Below are positions 20,415 to 31,715 of a DNA stretch of 64,000 nucleotides, in pieces (position 1 is the stretch's first letter; each line of letters begins with the position of its first letter). Position numbers and translations under genes: made by a program. The stretch is from the NCBI GenBank assembly GCA_035310145.1, contig DATGEL010000039.1, positions 1-64,000 of the forward strand, read 5' to 3'. The notes beneath the pieces are model-generated. The model did no database searches, was not told where the DNA came from, and saw nothing but the letters and a program-made list of their open reading frames with translations. Source of the DNA: Dehalococcoidia bacterium. Its GTDB lineage: Bacteria; Chloroflexota; Dehalococcoidia; CAUJGQ01.

Positions 20415-21482
20415 TCACACCGGTGCGTCGCCGAAGGCGGGCATGACCTCACGCGCGAACAGCTCCAGCGAGCGCATCACGTTCTCGTGCGGCAGGCCGC
20501 CGAAGTTGACCTCGAAGATCAGGTAGTTCATGCCGTACGCCTCGGTCAGCATGCGGATCTTCGCGCGGCACTCCTCCGGCGTGCCGAGCACGGCGCGCGT
20601 CTCCTTCATCTGGTCGAAAGAGATCGTCTGGCGGTTCTCATAAAAGCCCTTCCAGTCCTGGTACGCCCGCGGGTCGCGGTAGGCGTGGCGGCGCTCGTCC
20701 ACGGCCTTGCCGAACTGCTGAAAGCGCTTCATCGCCGGGTCGGCCACGGCGGCCACCTCCGCGGCCGATTCGGCGCAGTACATATGGTAGACGGCGAGCA
20801 CCTCCTTCTGGGCGGGATCGTGGCCGTGCTCGCGCAGGCTGTCGCGGTAGATCGCCAGGCGCTCCTGCATGTCGGCGAAGTGCGTGTAGAAGAAGGGCGC
20901 GGTCTGGAGGTTGAAGCCGTGGCTGCCGGCCCAGCGAAACGAGTCGCGGGTCATCACCGCGGCCACCCAGATCGGCGGATGCGGCTGCTGCAATGGCCGC
21001 GGTGTCACCGTGTGGTGCTCGATCGCCGTCCAGCGGCCGCGATAGGAGAAGTCCTCTTCCGTCCAGGCCCGCCGAATGATCTCCAGGTTTTCGTCGAACC
21101 GCTCCTTGCTCTCGCTCATGTCGACGCGGCAGGTGTCGTAGTCGTACTTGTACAGGCCGCGGCCGGCGCCGAAGTCGAGCCGCCCCTTGCTCAGCACGTC
21201 GACCATGGCGTAGTCCTCGGCCAGGCGGATCGGGTCGTTCAGCGGCAGCAGGCTGACGGCGGTGCCGAGGCGGATGCGCCGTGTCTGCCGCGCGGCGGCC
21301 GCCAGGAAGACGGCCGGCGAGCCGAAGGCGAAGGCGGGGATATGGTGCTCCGCCAGCCAGGCGCCGTCATAGCCCAGTTCGTCGGCGCGGACGATCTCTT
21401 CGAGCATGCCGTCGTACCACTGCGCGTAGCTGCCCTGAAAGTCCGGGTGATAGTCGGCGATGTAGCACAGGCCAAACTTCAT
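20415..21482 (-). CDS. LLM-class flavin-dependent oxidoreductase
   Basis: The 355-residue luciferase-like TIM barrel has the typical order MKFGLCYIADYHPDF, AWLAEHHIPAFAFGSPAVFLA, RIRLGTAVSLLPLNDPIRLAE, then GRLDFGAGRGL and PPIWVAAVMTRDSF. Family members use FMNH2 or F420 to oxidise carbon substrates. Which cofactor is used here cannot be told. It is transcribed toward pdxS. It lies downstream of a broken glycosidase gene and a catabolic-looking operon, and may belong to the same pathway. Confidence 0.9.
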   Translation of the reverse strand: MKFGLCYIADYHPDFQGSYAQWYDGMLEEIVRADELGYDGAWLAEHHIPAFAFGSPAVFLAAAARQTRRIRLGTAVSLLPLNDPIRLAEDYAMVDVLSKGRLDFGAGRGLYKYDYDTCRVDMSESKERFDENLEIIRRAWTEEDFSYRGRWTAIEHHTVTPRPLQQPHPPIWVAAVMTRDSFRWAGSHGFNLQTAPFFYTHFADMQERLAIYRDSLREHGHDPAQKEVLAVYHMYCAESAAEVAAVADPAMKRFQQFGKAVDERRHAYRDPRAYQDWKGFYENRQTISFDQMKETRAVLGTPEECRAKIRMLTEAYGMNYLIFEVNFGGLPHENVMRSLELFAREVMPAFGDAPV

Positions 21483-21712
21483 CACATCCCCCCGCGCCGG
21501 CGCATCGCTTCGCGGGCCGCCGTGGCCGCAGATGCGACACAGCGCCTGCCGCCGGCTCGGTCCCCGCGGCGGGGATCCGGCGCCGTCCATCGTACTCTTC
21601 GGCGACGCACCCAGACGCGGGCACACCGGCGCCACGGCAGCTTCGGAGCCGTCGCGGCGGGGACAGCCGCGATCGAGGGTAGGCAGGAGCGGGGCAGGGG
21701 CGCGGCACGCGG

Positions 21713-22135
21713 CTAGGGCGGGCCGCTGCCCTGCTTGTCGCCGCCGCAGCCGTCCGCGCCGGCGTCGGTGTAGATGCCGGCGCGCAGGCCGCGGGCGTGA
21801 ATGGAGTCGGTGAGGAAGCGCATGCCGTGCGGCCACTGGCGCGCGGGCGGCACGATCGCGCCTTGCGCGTCGCGTACGCCGTCCCACCAGCCGCCGTCCA
21901 GCCGGACGTACTGGTAGCCGGCGGCGAAAAAGCCACGTTCCACCATCGCATCGCTGACGTGCAGGATGAACTCTTCGTACATCGGCGTGCCGCCGTAGTA
22001 GGTGTTCCAGCCCATGTACGGCCTGAGCGCGAGGCCGGTATCCAGCGCCCGCGCCCGCTGCGTGCCCATGAGCAGCGCTGCGGCGCATGCCGCGAACAGC
22101 GTGAGCGCCGGCCAGATCGTGCCCTGTCGCCTCAC
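21713..22135 (-). pseudogene. GH27 alpha-galactosidase-like fragment, N-terminal part only
   Basis: The 140 codons encode a signal sequence (IWPALTLFAACAAALLM), then LRPYMGWNTYYG, YVRLDGGWWDG, and LRAGIYTDAGADGCGGDKQG. These are the first blocks of the GH27 TIM barrel. A stop follows where the family would continue to its first catalytic Asp, and no frame downstream continues the match. Full GH27 enzymes have about 400 residues. It is a truncated, inactive remnant. GTG 22135 is the likely start, with GGGAG upstream. Confidence 0.75.
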
Positions 22136-22279
22136 CTGCTGCTTCTCCCGTATCCGCGTCCACGCCGATCGAGAGCTGCGGAGACGGCCGCCCGCACAGG
22201 CGCCGGCACACGCGCCCTCGCACACGGCGCTGCGCGCCGCCCTGGCGAGAGGCTAGCCCGCGCGATCGCGGCCGGCATC

Positions 22280-22549: not shown

Positions 22550-23767
22550 CTACCAGGCGGCGTGCAGCAGCGCCAGCATGCGCGCGCTGTAGTCCGCCGG
22601 GCGCTCGCCGGGGTTGGCGTTGAAGTTCTTGAGCGTGTCCTGGGCGAGCTGGGGCAGATCGGCCTCGGGAATCTGCAGCTCGCGCACGCGGCTCGGCATG
22701 CCGGCCTTCGCCAGCAGGGCCTCAAGCGCCGCCGCGGCCGCCTCTATCGCCGCCGCCGCCGACATGCCCTCGCGCCAAACGCCGAGGCCGGCGGCGATCG
22801 CCTGGGCCGGAGCGGCAGGCGGCGCCAGGCGGCGCAGGCAGGTCGGCCATACCGCCGCCGTCGCCTCGCCCTGGCCGACGTGGTGGTAGCGGATGTGCAG
22901 CGCCGTGGCCAGCGCGTAGCTGGCGCTGGCGGCCGCGTCGCGCCCGCGGCCGGCGTCGTCGTCGGCGGCGCGGTTTTGTAAGAGCGCGGCGGCGCAGAGG
23001 TCGATGCGCAGTTGCACGTTCTCCGGCTCGTGCGGCAGGCGGCCGAGCGCGGCGTGCGCCAGGGCAAAGGCCTGGCGCTGGTCGCCCGCCGCCAGCGGGT
23101 TCGCGTCGCTCGCACCCAGCGCCGTCAGCGAGCCGAGGAAGGTGGTGGTGGCCGTGGAGCGCAGCAGCGCAAGCGGCGCCGTGAGCAGGGCGCCATGGTC
23201 CCAGACGATCGCGGCCGGCCGCGTCTTCGGGTCGAAGAACTCCATGCGGTGGTCGAGCGCGTCGTTCTTCAGCGCCGAGCCGGCGCGGTTCATGGCGCTG
23301 GTCGGCGTGGTGGGCACGTTGATGATCGGCGGCTTCGGCGCCCGCAGGCGCGGGCTGTAGGCCGGCTTGCCTTCAGGATACTGGGTCATCAGTGCGTACG
23401 GGTCGCCCTGCTCCGCCAGCAGGATGGCGACGACGCGCGAGCCGTGGATCACGCTGCCGCCGCCCACGGCGATCAGCAGATCGGCCCCGGCCGCCCGCGC
23501 TTCTTCTGTGCCGCGCTGGATCGCGGGGAAGGTCGCGTCCTTGTCCATCCCGTCGTAGACGCCGGCGAAGGCGCCGCCGCAGGCCGCGCGGATGCGCGGC
23601 ACCAGGTCCGTTTTGCCGGCGACGGTCTTGCCACAGAGCACGAACGCCCGGCGCGCCCCGGCGCGGCGCAGCTCGTCGCCGATGCTGGTGATCGCTTCGG
23701 CGCCGCAGTAGAGCCGCCACGGATACCCCTGGGCGCGGAAAGCAGCGGCCGTCTGCGGCATCGGCAT
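22550..23767 (-). CDS. Iron-type alcohol dehydrogenase / maleylacetate reductase family protein
   Basis: The 405-residue protein has the dehydroquinate synthase-like fold of group III alcohol dehydrogenases. It has an N-terminal nucleotide domain with ADLLIAVGGGSVIHGSR, then INVPTTPTSAMNRAGS, and an all-helical metal-binding half with LHIRYHHVGQGEATAA. It would reduce a carbonyl or maleylacetate-type ring-cleavage product, or oxidise an alcohol. It is 26 bases downstream of the predicted selenoprotein gene in the same operon. Confidence 0.82.
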   Translation of the reverse strand: MPMPQTAAAFRAQGYPWRLYCGAEAITSIGDELRRAGARRAFVLCGKTVAGKTDLVPRIRAACGGAFAGVYDGMDKDATFPAIQRGTEEARAAGADLLIAVGGGSVIHGSRVVAILLAEQGDPYALMTQYPEGKPAYSPRLRAPKPPIINVPTTPTSAMNRAGSALKNDALDHRMEFFDPKTRPAAIVWDHGALLTAPLALLRSTATTTFLGSLTALGASDANPLAAGDQRQAFALAHAALGRLPHEPENVQLRIDLCAAALLQNRAADDDAGRGRDAAASASYALATALHIRYHHVGQGEATAAVWPTCLRRLAPPAAPAQAIAAGLGVWREGMSAAAAIEAAAAALEALLAKAGMPSRVRELQIPEADLPQLAQDTLKNFNANPGERPADYSARMLALLHAAW

Positions 23768-23793: not shown

Positions 23794-24978
23794 TCAGCGG
23801 GCGATGCCGTAAGCGATCGCCTTCATCGCCGGGTCTTCGGACACGTCCAGCCGCTCTTTGACACGGCGGATGAGCTGGCCGGTGGCCGTCTCGCCCCAGA
23901 ACCAGCGGGCGAAGGCCTCGCCGGTGGTCTGCGGCTGCTGCAGCAGCCGCGCCTCGAAGTACATGGCCTTCAAATCGTCGGCGCAGTAGCGGATGAAGAG
24001 CGGCAGCGGCACGCCCTCCGGCCGCTCGCGCATATCCGCCTCGTCGCCCGCGGCGACTGCTTCAAGGAAGCGGATCACGCCACGGAAGCGCTGCGGCGGG
24101 ATGCGCGTGAGGCCGACGGCGGTGTGGCCCTCGCGCTGCAGCCACTGCTCGTGGTAGCGGCGCAGGCGCGTGGTCTCCGCGGCCGCGTCTTCGGCGGCTG
24201 GCGCGGTTTCGACCTGCGAGGCCTGCAGCGGCGCCGCCGGACCTGCCGCCGCGGCCTCGTCCGGGAAGTCGCGCAGCACGGGGCAGCCGCGCTCGGCGAA
24301 GAGGTCGAGCGCGGCGCCCAGCACACGATGCTGCAGATCGGGGTCGTTCGGCCGGCCGAAGGGGTGGCCGAAGGGGAAGGGCACGAACAGGGCGCGCGGC
24401 GGCTGCACCTGCGCGGTATGCTCGCGCACCAGGCTGATCGAGGTGGTGGGCAGGCCGGCGGCTTCGAGCACGCGGGCGATCACACCGACGGTGTGCGTGC
24501 AGAACGGTCAGGTGGGGGTAAGCAGCACGGCGTCGGCGCCGTCCTCGCGCAGCCGCCGCGCCACTTCCGGCGCCGTCTCGGAGACGATGCGGCTCACGTC
24601 GCGCTGGGCGCCCATGAACGAGTAGCAGTTAGGCGCGAGGCCGCCCAGCTCGCCGCGCTGCACCAACTCGCGCAGCCGGTCGATCGGGAAGACGACGTTC
24701 CAGTCCTGCTGCGTGGCGGTGCGGTCGAAGCCGATGCTCTGGTGGCTTTGCAGTACGTCCGCCTGCGTCGCCGTCGAGGGGATGACGCGGAACGAGGGAT
24801 CGCCCGGACCGAAGGGCCGGGCGTCGCGCAGGTGGATGCCGATCGTGGTGACGATCGCGATCCGGCTCTGCGCCAGTGGCTTGGCCGGCGGCGTACAGGG
24901 CGAGGTCTCGTTGACCTGCACGGGCAGCGCCAGGATCGTGTTGCGGGCGATCTGCGAGAGGCAGTCGAGGCGTGGCAT
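23794..24978 (-). CDS. Predicted selenoprotein, glycine/betaine/sarcosine/D-proline reductase B family
   Basis: The minus-strand frame is interrupted only by TGA at 24508-24510 (codon 157). Both sides match one GrdB-type protein. Before the stop are AIVTTIGIHLRDARPF, FDRTATQQDWNVVFPIDRL and GADAVLLTPT. After it are PFCTHTVGVIARVLEAAGLP and FVPFPFGHPFGRPNDPDL. The UGA stands exactly where GrdB/PrdB proteins have selenocysteine in a U-x-x-C motif, here U-P-F-C. A SECIS-like hairpin follows. Read through, the product is 394 residues. The pyruvoyl proprotein partner of true reductases (GrdE/PrdA) is not nearby, so the substrate is unknown. A Cys-to-stop mutation is the alternative. Confidence 0.85.
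24468..24507 (-). promoter_or_regulatory. SECIS-like hairpin directly after the UGA codon
   Basis: In the mRNA, CACACC pairs with GGUGUG around a GUC loop, and an outer GCACG/CGUGC helix can form around it. The apical loop begins 19 bases after the UGA and starts with GU. This suits bacterial SECIS elements, whose loop lies about 16-37 bases downstream and has conserved G and U. The stem lies wholly within the coding sequence, as expected for bacteria. Confidence 0.6.
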
Positions 24979-25042: not shown

Positions 25043-25525
25043 CTACGCCGGGCTTGCGGCCCGCGATTTCGGCGGCATGGCGGCTAGCCGGCTCAGCAGC
25101 TCGGCCTCGCTCTGGTCGAGGTCGATCGGGTCGCCGTGCGGCTGCGGGTAGTCCTTGCCGGTGGGCCAGTAGATCTCGACGCGGTTGCCTTCCGGGTCGC
25201 GGAAGTAGCAGCCGAAGGCGATGCCGTGGTTCACGACGCGGTCCACGGGATAGCCGCGCGCCTTGATCTGCTGCCAGAACTGGCGCAGCTCGGCAAGCGA
25301 GCCGACGGTGAACGAGATCTGCTGCACCTCGCTCTTGCGCTCCGGCGCCCTCATCAGCGCCAGCTCGTGGTGCTCTTCGTGCGGCCGGGCGCTGAGGAAG
25401 ACGATCCAGTCGCCGTCGCCGCGGTCGGTCACCTGCATACCGAGGAAGTTGTGGTAGAAGTCGATCATCACGGCGGGGTCCTGCACGAACAGCCCCACGT
25501 GCCCCAGACCGGTGACGTTCGGCAT
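25043..25525 (-). CDS. VOC-superfamily protein (glyoxalase/extradiol dioxygenase-like)
   Basis: The 160-residue protein has paired beta-alpha-beta-beta-beta modules. It begins VTGLGHVGLFVQDPAVMIDF (metal-ligand His) and continues with EEHHELALM and RVVNHGIAFGCYFRDPEGNRVEIY, where the final Glu is the usual ligand. These features fit a single-domain extradiol dioxygenase or isomerase that binds Fe(II) or Mn(II). AGGAGG lies seven bases before the ATG. It is the first gene of the operon with the predicted selenoprotein and the iron-type dehydrogenase. Confidence 0.85.
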   Translation of the reverse strand: MPNVTGLGHVGLFVQDPAVMIDFYHNFLGMQVTDRGDGDWIVFLSARPHEEHHELALMRAPERKSEVQQISFTVGSLAELRQFWQQIKARGYPVDRVVNHGIAFGCYFRDPEGNRVEIYWPTGKDYPQPHGDPIDLDQSEAELLSRLAAMPPKSRAASPA

Positions 25526-28361: not shown

Positions 28362-29348
28362 TCAGCTCTTCAGCTTCTTCACCTCTTCGATCAGCGGCGG
28401 CATCACCTGCTTGTAGTCGGCGACCACGGCGAAGCGCGCCACCTTGACCATATTGGCGTCCGGGTCCTTGTTGATCGCCACGATGTTCTTCGAGCCGGAC
28501 ATACCCGCCATGTGCTGGCTGGCGCCGGAGATCGCCACGGCGATGTAGAGGTCCGGGCTCACCGTCGTGCCCGTGAGGCCAACCTGCTTCGAGGGCGGAT
28601 ACCAGCCCAGGTCGCAGGCGGCGCGGCTGGCGCCCGCGGCGCCGCCCAGCACGGCCGCAAGCTGCTCGATCACCTGGAAGCCGTCCGGCGAGCCCAGGCC
28701 GCGCCCGCCGCTGACGACGACATCGGCGTCCTCCAGCCGCACGCCCTCGGCCTTCGCCTTCTCCTGGCCCAGCACCTTCGTGCGCACGTTCTGGCCGGAA
28801 ACAGCCACGTTCACGACCTCGGCCGCGCGGCCGGCCGCCGGCTCCAGCGGCTCCTGCGACTTCGCCTTGATCGTGGCGACCACCGGCAGCTTCACGGGCG
28901 AGAGCACGGCGCGCGCGTTGCCGCCGTAGGCGGCGCGGGTCAGGTGCGGCACGCCGCCCTCCACGCTGACCTCGACCGTGTCCATCGAGACGCCGGTATC
29001 GAGGCGGAAGGCCAGGCGCGGCGCCAGGTCGCGGCCGATGCTCGACTGCGCCAGCAGCACCAGCGCCGGGTTCGCCTGCCTGACGATGCCCTCGACCACC
29101 GGCAGCCAGGCGTCGTTCTGATAGGGCGCCAGGCCCGCGTCGTCGGCCACGTAGACCGTGTCCGCGCCGAGCGGGCCGGTTTCGCCGGCATGGCCGGAGA
29201 CGCCGCTGCCCAGCAGCGCCACCGCGACCTTGCCGCCCAGGCCGCCCTCGACCAGCCGGTGCGCCAGGCCGAGCATCTCGGCCGTCGTGCCGGAGACGGC
29301 GCCCTCATGAATCTCCCCGACGACCAGCACCCCGTTTTCGTTCGCCAT
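28362..29348 (-). CDS. etfA: Electron transfer flavoprotein alpha subunit
   Basis: The 328-residue FAD-binding subunit has the N-terminal ETF domain and the C-terminal FAD domain. The latter has [48 protein letters not shown] and the signature [10 protein letters not shown], followed by [13 protein letters not shown]. It forms a dimer with EtfB (54 bases upstream) and shuttles electrons from acyl-CoA dehydrogenases. ATG 29348 matches the family N-terminus. Longer starts are unsupported. Confidence 0.96.
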
Positions 29349-29402
29349 CTGTCGTTGTTCCTCGTCGAATTCTGCGTTGCGCATGGCCCGTTGGCCGCGG
29401 CG

Positions 29403-30197
29403 CTAGATCAGCTTCGCCTCGCGCAGCTTGCGCGCCAGGTTCACGGCCTGCTCGGCCGGCGTGTCGCCCTCGATGATCTCGACCTTCGAGTCGTTCACGG
29501 GCACGAATAGCTTCTCCAGCTTCAGGCGCGGCTGCAGATCGGCGGCGCCGAGGCCCAGGTCCGCCGGCGTGTAGGTCGTGACCTGTTTGCGGGCGGCCAT
29601 CATGATCTGGCGCAGCTGCGGGTAGCGCGGGTCGCCCAGCTCGTTGCTGACCGTGACCACCGCCGGCAGCGAGCTTTCCACCGTCTCAAAGCCGTCCTGC
29701 AATACCCGCTCGACCTTGACGCCGCCGTTCGTCGCCGTCACGCTCTTGGTCACGGTGAGCGCGGGCAGGCCGAGGATCTCGGCGATGCCGGAGGGCACGA
29801 CGCCCTGGTCCCAGTCCGCCGCCTGGCGGCCGGTGATGATCAGCTGATAGTCGCCGATCTTCTGGATCGCCGCGGCCAGCACCTTCGCGGTGACGAACGC
29901 GTCGGCGTCCTCGAGCGCGGGGTCGGAGACGAGCACGCCCTCATCGGCGCCCATCGCCAGGCCGTGCTTGATCGCGTCGCGGGCGCTGGCCTGGCCCATC
30001 GAAAGCACGGTGATCTTGCCTTCGCCCTGCACGTCCTTGATGCGCAGCGCCGCCTCCACCGCCTGCGCGTCGAAGGGGCTGATCACCGGCGCCACGCCCT
30101 GCGCGGGCACGACCTTGTTGGTCGCGGCGTCCACCTTGAACGCCGCGGCCGGTGTCTCGGGGTCGGGTACCTGCTTGACGCATACGATGATGTTCAC
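29403..30197 (-). CDS. etfB: Electron transfer flavoprotein beta subunit
   Basis: The 264-residue AMP-binding subunit begins MNIIVCVKQVPDPETPAAAF. It contains DAQAVEAALRIKD, the AMP-site region LIITGRQAADWDQGVVPSGI, and the recognition-loop part VTVSNELGDPRYPQLRQIMMA that docks to dehydrogenases. GTG start has AGGAGG upstream. It lies between a NuoF-like gene and etfA on one strand, suggesting a shared operon. Confidence 0.96.
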   Translation of the reverse strand: MNIIVCVKQVPDPETPAAAFKVDAATNKVVPAQGVAPVISPFDAQAVEAALRIKDVQGEGKITVLSMGQASARDAIKHGLAMGADEGVLVSDPALEDADAFVTAKVLAAAIQKIGDYQLIITGRQAADWDQGVVPSGIAEILGLPALTVTKSVTATNGGVKVERVLQDGFETVESSLPAVVTVSNELGDPRYPQLRQIMMAARKQVTTYTPADLGLGAADLQPRLKLEKLFVPVNDSKVEIIEGDTPAEQAVNLARKLREAKLI

Positions 30198-30350
30198 GAG
30201 TCAGGTCCTCCTGAGTGCTTCCTCGCAGTGTGGAGACCGTCGCCCATGCCGCGGCGGCCCGGCGCGCAAACGGCGGCAGGCGATGGAAGCGGATTACTTC
30301 CATAATCATCGCCCGCCGCCCGCTTAGACGCCATCCGCGGCCGCTGCACG

Positions 30351-31715
30351 CTACCTGGCGCCGTACGACCAGTCCGGCTGCTTGTGCACGTAGTTCTCGT
30401 CGAAGCGGAAGCCGCCTTCCGGCAGATAGGCGGTCATCTTGGGGATCGCGATCTCGTGGCGCAGGGCGCAGCGGCGCTCCAGGTGCGCCTGGAACTCTTC
30501 GGGAAAGGCCGCCAGCATCGCGGCCGTGACGATCGCCTCCTCCGAGGCGAGGAAGCAGCGGGCGGCGTTCGTCACCCAGGTCGAGGCCGCGTGGATCTCG
30601 TCGAGATCGTGCGCCTCGGCCTCGCCGGCCAGCAGCCGCTCCAGCCGCTCGGTGATCCAGCGCGAGCCGGTCTTGCACGGCGGGCACTGGTTGCACGACT
30701 CGACGTAGAGGAAGCGCGAGAAGGCGTAGAGCACCTGCACCATGCAGGCGCTGTCGTCGTAGGCCACGAAGCCGCCCGAGCCGAGGCCCGAGCCCGCGGC
30801 GCGCATGCTGTCGAACGAGAGCGGCGTATCCCACTGTGGCGGCGTCAGCACCGCGCCGGCGCCGGGCAGCACCGCCTTGAGCCGGCGGCCGGGCGCTGGC
30901 CCGCCGGCCAGCTCGAACAGCAGGTAGCCCAGCGTCTGCCCCAGCGGCAGCTCGACGATCTGCGGGCGCTGCACGTCGCCCGAGATCGTGAAGATCATCG
31001 TGCCCGGCGTGTCGGCGCTGCCGATGCCGCGGAACCAGTCCGCGCCGTTGCGCAGGATCTGCGTCACGTGCGCCAGCGTCTCCACGTTGTTCACCACCGT
31101 CGGGTGGGCGAGCGTGTCGCTCGGGCCGCCGTACGCGCCGCTGAACAGGCCGTGCAGGCGCGGCGGGAAGACCCGCGGTAACGGCAACCCGCCCTCGATC
31201 ACCTCCAGCAGCGCCTTCTCCTCACCGAAGAGGTATTCATCCGGGCCGAGCACCAGCTCGATCGCTCCGACCAGCGTCGTGCGCTCGCGCAGCTCGGCAA
31301 GCGCCCGCTCCAGCGCCGCCACTTCCGGCTCGAACTGCCGCTTGGTGCAGAGGTAGGCCGTGCGCGCGCTCAGTGCGAAGCGCGCGATCGCCAGCCCTTC
31401 GATCACCTGGTACGGATTCATGCGCAGCAGGTAGCGGTCCTTGAACGTGCCCGGCTCGCCCTCGGCGCCGTTGGCACAGACGTAGCGCGTCGTCGCCGGA
31501 TCGTTGTGCACGCCCGCCCACTTCGTCGCCGTCGGGAAGCCGGCGCCGCCGCGGCCGCGCAGGCCGGCTCGCCGCAGCTCCGCGATCACGGCGTCGGGGC
31601 CGAGCTGCTGCGCCCGTGCGAAGGCCGCGCCGCCGCCGCGGGCAAGGTAGGCATCGAGCGACTCGACGGGCGTGCTGTCCGGCAGCAGGATGCGGGTCAG
31701 GGGTTGAACGGCCAT
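30351..31715 (-). CDS. NuoF-like NADH dehydrogenase flavoprotein subunit
   Basis: The 454-residue protein matches the FMN- and NADH-binding 51-kDa subunit of complex I and related diaphorases. It has LRGRGGAGFPTATKWAG, ANGAEGEPGTFKDRYL, DEYLFGEEKALLEVIEG and the Fe-S motif SCNQCPPCKTGS with the fourth Cys in ARCFLA. No NuoE or NuoG partner is encoded nearby. Instead etfB and etfA follow within 153 bases. This suggests a NADH-linked ETF oxidoreductase rather than complex I, an inference from gene order. Confidence 0.9.
   Translation of the reverse strand: MAVQPLTRILLPDSTPVESLDAYLARGGGAAFARAQQLGPDAVIAELRRAGLRGRGGAGFPTATKWAGVHNDPATTRYVCANGAEGEPGTFKDRYLLRMNPYQVIEGLAIARFALSARTAYLCTKRQFEPEVAALERALAELRERTTLVGAIELVLGPDEYLFGEEKALLEVIEGGLPLPRVFPPRLHGLFSGAYGGPSDTLAHPTVVNNVETLAHVTQILRNGADWFRGIGSADTPGTMIFTISGDVQRPQIVELPLGQTLGYLLFELAGGPAPGRRLKAVLPGAGAVLTPPQWDTPLSFDSMRAAGSGLGSGGFVAYDDSACMVQVLYAFSRFLYVESCNQCPPCKTGSRWITERLERLLAGEAEAHDLDEIHAASTWVTNAARCFLASEEAIVTAAMLAAFPEEFQAHLERRCALRHEIAIPKMTAYLPEGGFRFDENYVHKQPDWSYGAR

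Follow-up and report, generated by a model that had tools for sequence, protein, structure and literature searches.

The selenoenzymes GrdB and PrdB hold the amine of their substrate as a Schiff base on a carbonyl (for PrdA, a pyruvoyl group), followed by attack of the selenolate. Proline reduction is an anaerobic fermentation, despite which a selenocysteine (Sec) containing 'proline reductase' is among the commonest selenoproteins reported from surface seawater. In two metagenome studies, Sec 'PrdB' ranked third in number among the known selenoproteins of the Sargasso Sea set (42 sequences; 2005, PMC1088965) and is represented by 235 sequences in the GOS metagenomes (2008, PMC2398784). With these two ocean reports, the kind of protein studied here is already known. 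For the GrdB homologue FarB, an attack on the substrate without a Schiff base has been proposed (PMC10838667). A long form without a partner appears to be undescribed, i.e., no description of it, including under PrdB-like or GrdB-family names, was found in the literature searched, whose coverage leaves out most subscription journals.

Here, we study such a long form in a window of 64,000 nt from a Dehalococcoidia bacterium (contig DATGEL010000039.1). The selenoprotein gene (23794..24978, minus strand) starts with an ATG at 24978, and its terminal TGA ends at 23794. When TGA is taken as a residue, the frame spans 394 codons (24978→23797) with a single internal TGA at codon 157 (24508..24510, minus strand), and the predicted product is a 394 aa long-form member of the GrdB/PrdB superfamily. 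The sequence around the Sec codon reads LLTPT-U-PFC, such that the UGA opens a U-P-F-C redox motif (residues 157-160; 24499..24510, minus strand) of which both ends are invariant in the family. Downstream of the TGA, 237 codons are open, for which the chance in a random frame is about 3% at the 70% G+C of the window. Openness alone is thus weak evidence and homology must carry the argument. Both flanks of the TGA match one and the same protein family, and the nearest relatives are about 50% identical to the window protein over residues 1-394, i.e., across the TGA. The Pfam model GRDB (PF07355) covers residues 18-156 with 45.2 bits (gathering cut-off 22), while the NCBIfam PrdB model covers residues 26-227 and thereby spans the TGA.

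We scanned genome contigs and obtained 31 homologous loci from other species. The TGA is found at the same codon in 30/31 of them, distributed over Chloroflexota, Thermodesulfobacteriota, Myxococcota, Pseudomonadota and Actinomycetota. The sole exception, a decayed pseudogene from Geobacteraceae (L053:6001-6942), shows TAA at the Sec codon plus several further stops. Within the class of the host genome, 133 of the 393 sampled genomes contain a match, and all of the matches listed include a TGA. Two plasmid-borne short relatives from Alphaproteobacteria carry Cys at the Sec site (PNC-PxC), which is the usual Sec/Cys exchange.

A SECIS hairpin follows the codon (24480..24496, minus strand; stem CACACC/GGUGUG, loop GUC). 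With the U of UGA numbered 1, its stem pairs positions 16-21 with 25-30, and the GUC loop starts 19 bases past the UGA. For the seven-pair stem (15-21 with 25-31), 91.2% of cells are paired among 39 distinct sequences, compared to 76.4% when shuffled. Double changes are present in 6/7 pairs, 35 cells are compensatory, and 0/500 shuffles match the observed values for pairing, double changes or compensation. Sliding the partner strand by 1-3 columns reduces the pairing to 26-56%. We also compared the 85% pairing observed among 70 sequences with two codon-preserving null models, which yield 53% when synonymous codons are redrawn per gene and 79% when they are swapped among the homologues. The folding energy of the window's hairpin copy alone is nothing unusual (z = 0.05), and an Rfam search of the window returned tRNAs only. 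It is the conserved, covarying pairing that indicates that the predicted hairpin is real.

The genome carrying the gene (5.32 Mb, 99.8% complete) encodes a tRNA-Sec with anticodon UCA (74 bits), both SelA and SelB, and SelD. The SelD gene (G000:C119:309-1241) holds an in-frame TGA of its own within a CGGU motif (read by eye) and is thus a predicted selenoprotein too. Considering codon, hairpin and machinery together, we regard it as close to certain from these sequences that UGA 157 encodes Sec in the window protein. The alternative, a pseudogene or sequencing error, with the TGA serving as a regular stop or standing for a misread TGC/TGT, could point to the decayed L053 copy with its TAA and other stops, but is hardly credible given a TGA that recurs across species and phyla, a covarying hairpin and the full Sec machinery. 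An earlier note on this DNA had proposed most of this from the letters alone, i.e., a frame broken only by the TGA at 24508-24510 with one family on both sides, Sec at the Sec position of a U-x-x-C motif, and a hairpin whose loop starts with GU, 19 bases past the UGA; that the gene lies on the minus strand was left unsaid there. These claims hold, given homology across the TGA, invariant U157 and C160, and a covarying stem with loop GUC. Two of the checks it had suggested agree as well: selA, selB, selC and selD were all found, and homologues aligned at codon 157 show TGA at 30/31 loci and Cys in the short alphaproteobacterial relatives. A practical implication is that gene callers taking UGA as stop will split the genes of such selenoproteins.

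With regard to its relatives, the window protein is one of a large and widespread family and no lone oddity. In a maximum-likelihood tree, the window gene groups with seven homologues that all come from a single family-level group of its class (support 98/93). This group falls within a clade of 61 long-form sequences (100/99), which also takes in Thermodesulfobacteriota, Myxococcota, Pseudomonadota and Actinomycetota. The copy L104, from a sampled genome of the class, is identical to the Chloroflexi copy L030. Several genomes hold more than one copy: two tandem Sec copies are located at L033:6001-8609, the second with a motif one residue longer (U-P-A-L-C), tandem Sec paralogue pairs are found at L097, L118 and L124, and four matches each are listed for the genomes G193, G116, G127 and G072. 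Residues invariant across 44 aligned proteins include D92, P98, G123, U157, C160, T178, R195, G204 and G208. Most family-invariant residues are also present in Peptoclostridium PrdB when compared by eye; the core residues in common with PrdB include R64, H79, D92, N94, P98, G123, U157, C160, T178, R195 and G208. The PrdB model matches all 44/44 aligned members.

The AlphaFold2 model of the window protein is confident (pLDDT 92, pTM 0.91) and divides it into two parts, namely an alpha/beta domain that resembles PrdB and holds the active site (residues 1-240; 24259..24978, minus strand) and a helical C-terminal domain (residues 265-392, approximate at its start; 23803..24186, minus strand). The latter is specific to the long form, i.e., absent from PrdB and from the short relatives, and its residues E268, D335, E342, W359 and T364 are invariant in 37 long-form sequences. 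This domain may serve to close the substrate site or to extend it. Sequence searches of solved structures gave nothing convincing for either domain, and Foldseek on the structure model returned no match under 0.001. VIA-align places the N-terminal domain at a best Z of 8.4 (rmsd 3.4-3.7, 139-155 aligned), which is a match of the common alpha/beta arrangement, and the helical domain at Z 5.4 (rmsd 5.0, 98 aligned).

Compared with the profiles of known reductases, the best match is the PrdB equivalog model TIGR04483 with 141.2 bits, under its cut-off of 300. The GrdB model TIGR01917 (47.2 bits, cut-off 602.2) and the general B-family model TIGR01918 (59.0 bits, cut-off 65.45) also stay under their cut-offs. 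We searched for the partner proteins of these reductases as well. The pyruvoyl profile PF09338 (PrdA) has no match above cut-off in the host genome and 18 other gene-bearing genomes, while the Peptoclostridium control record gives three. According to the PLSDB gene table, a Peptoclostridium prdB seemed to lack PrdA; the PF09338 search located PrdA just upstream. GrdA was not found in the genome, whereas the control record was detected. The PrdC search gave only weak NuoF/RnfC-like matches, and the control record was below cut-off too. That the protein is a D-proline or glycine-type reductase, with a pyruvoyl partner encoded elsewhere or too diverged to detect, would accord with PrdB being the best profile match. 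We consider it improbable in view of 141 bits against a cut-off of 300, 0/19 genomes with PF09338 above cut-off at a working control and the lack of GrdA; the PrdC matches add only a generic NuoF/RnfC level to this, with the control likewise below cut-off.

The genome also contains two strong haem-copper oxidase genes, which makes aerobic respiration of the host likely. The earlier note is borne out where it assumed a stand-alone protein that lacks the pyruvoyl partner in a host with aerobic capacity. Its assignment to the GrdB family needs revision: PF07355 supports the superfamily, while the best match is to PrdB, below cut-off, and not to GrdB proper.

We further inspected the genomic neighborhood. 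Upstream of the selenoprotein gene, after a 64-base gap, lies a VOC-superfamily (glyoxalase/dioxygenase-like) gene (25043..25525, minus strand); downstream, after a 26-base gap, an iron-containing alcohol dehydrogenase family gene (22550..23767, minus strand). Both are possible operon partners. A luciferase-like monooxygenase gene is located further downstream (20415..21500, minus strand). Among 81 genes flanking the homologues, there is no conserved neighbor, i.e., any one family turns up at most four times. VOC genes adjoin some gammaproteobacterial homologues and luciferase-like monooxygenases are found near the closest homologues; these are only superfamily relatives of the window's VOC gene and distant relatives of its monooxygenase, respectively. 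Both were thus rejected as conserved partners (remote relatives with 24-25% identity). Given that no neighbor is conserved, the selenoprotein is likely to work by itself or together with a general reductant. Lacking conserved neighbors fits single-gene action, although it may also be compatible with a partner encoded elsewhere. For a catabolic role, the evidence is thin: one three-gene run (VOC, selenoprotein, iron-containing alcohol dehydrogenase) in one genome. Elsewhere in the window, EtfA and EtfB genes adjoin a NuoF-like flavoprotein gene (28362-31715, minus strand), a possible electron-transfer module, and a short frame at 21713-22225 (minus strand) matches positions 27-106 of the 284 in an alpha-galactosidase model (Melibiase_2) and may be a fragment or belong to a frame-shifted gene. 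At another locus, the Cys relative from Roseomonas (L129:5884-8269) adjoins a selO (protein adenylyltransferase) gene.

Taken together, the protein belongs to the GrdB/PrdB superfamily as a true selenoprotein in a long, partnerless form, and it most likely serves as a lone reductase of an electrophilic catabolic intermediate. The ribosome decodes UGA 157 as Sec via SelB, tRNA-Sec and the hairpin just 3' of it. Since the pyruvoyl subunit is absent, the substrate has to be electrophilic from the outset. FarB provides a proposed precedent as a GrdB homologue whose substrate is attacked without a Schiff base, yet it has a partner (PMC10838667). Given both points, we favor, as our best guess, a selenol reductase of one subunit that acts on an electrophilic metabolite, in a member of the Chloroflexota with aerobic capacity. 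For this enzyme, we infer the reaction, the reductant, the single-subunit action and the catabolic role as follows. The PrdB-like alpha/beta domain with its invariant U-x-x-C, fused to the helical domain, would act as a reductase of one subunit. Its selenolate would attack a small catabolic intermediate at an electrophilic atom, be it carbon or another. The thiol of Cys160 would then resolve the adduct through a selenenyl sulphide, and thioredoxin or another general thiol system could re-reduce the enzyme.

A serious rival is a plain thiol-disulphide or peroxide-type redox enzyme that uses its U-x-x-C without cleaving a C-X bond. This reading is the less likely one, though it can draw on a thioredoxin-like motif, an aerobically capable host with varied neighbors and marginal Thioredoxin_9 matches in two members. 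On the other hand, the PrdB core residues beyond the motif point to a substrate pocket that may derive from a reductase. Among the structural matches, as far as their ranking can tell, there is no conspicuous thioredoxin fold. Returning to the lone reductase, a wider claim would be that the long form constitutes a selenoenzyme family that is as yet undescribed and common among environmental bacteria, Chloroflexota included. Its members would consist of one subunit and, with no pyruvoyl partner, break a C-N, C-S or C-halogen bond in aerobically living cells. We put this forward tentatively, as a possibility that is itself doubtful; if true, the abundant 'PrdB' selenoproteins of the ocean are misnamed. 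In any case, the window gene is well supported as a long form. Its genome has haem-copper oxidases and lacks the partner on which proline reductase depends, and the gene offers a defined target for asking which role such proteins play in aerobic microbes.

The relation to the described systems can be summarized as follows. With the proteins from the Sargasso Sea and GOS surface-ocean samples it has in common to be a U-x-x-C selenoprotein of the superfamily, while the papers name those proline reductase (PMC1088965, PMC2398784). FarB, the fluoroacetate reductase of Cloacibacillus, is likewise a GrdB homologue with predicted Sec, but it is anaerobic, has FarE as a partner along with a GrdA/GrdC system, and is without the protecting Cys motif (PMC10838667). 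To GrdB and its relatives GrdF and GrdH (PF07355), the window protein corresponds over profile positions 206-347, i.e., the C-terminal portion of the model as far as the Sec site; in contrast to GrdB, it is without the N-terminal ~200 residues, a GrdE-type partner and GrdA. Closest is PrdB, with which it has the domain, the U-x-x-C at the same position and most core residues in common. PrdB, however, comprises about 238 aa and acts with the pyruvoyl protein PrdA, whereas the window protein of 394 aa scores less than half of what the PrdB model requires, comes from a genome without PrdA and carries an extra helical domain.
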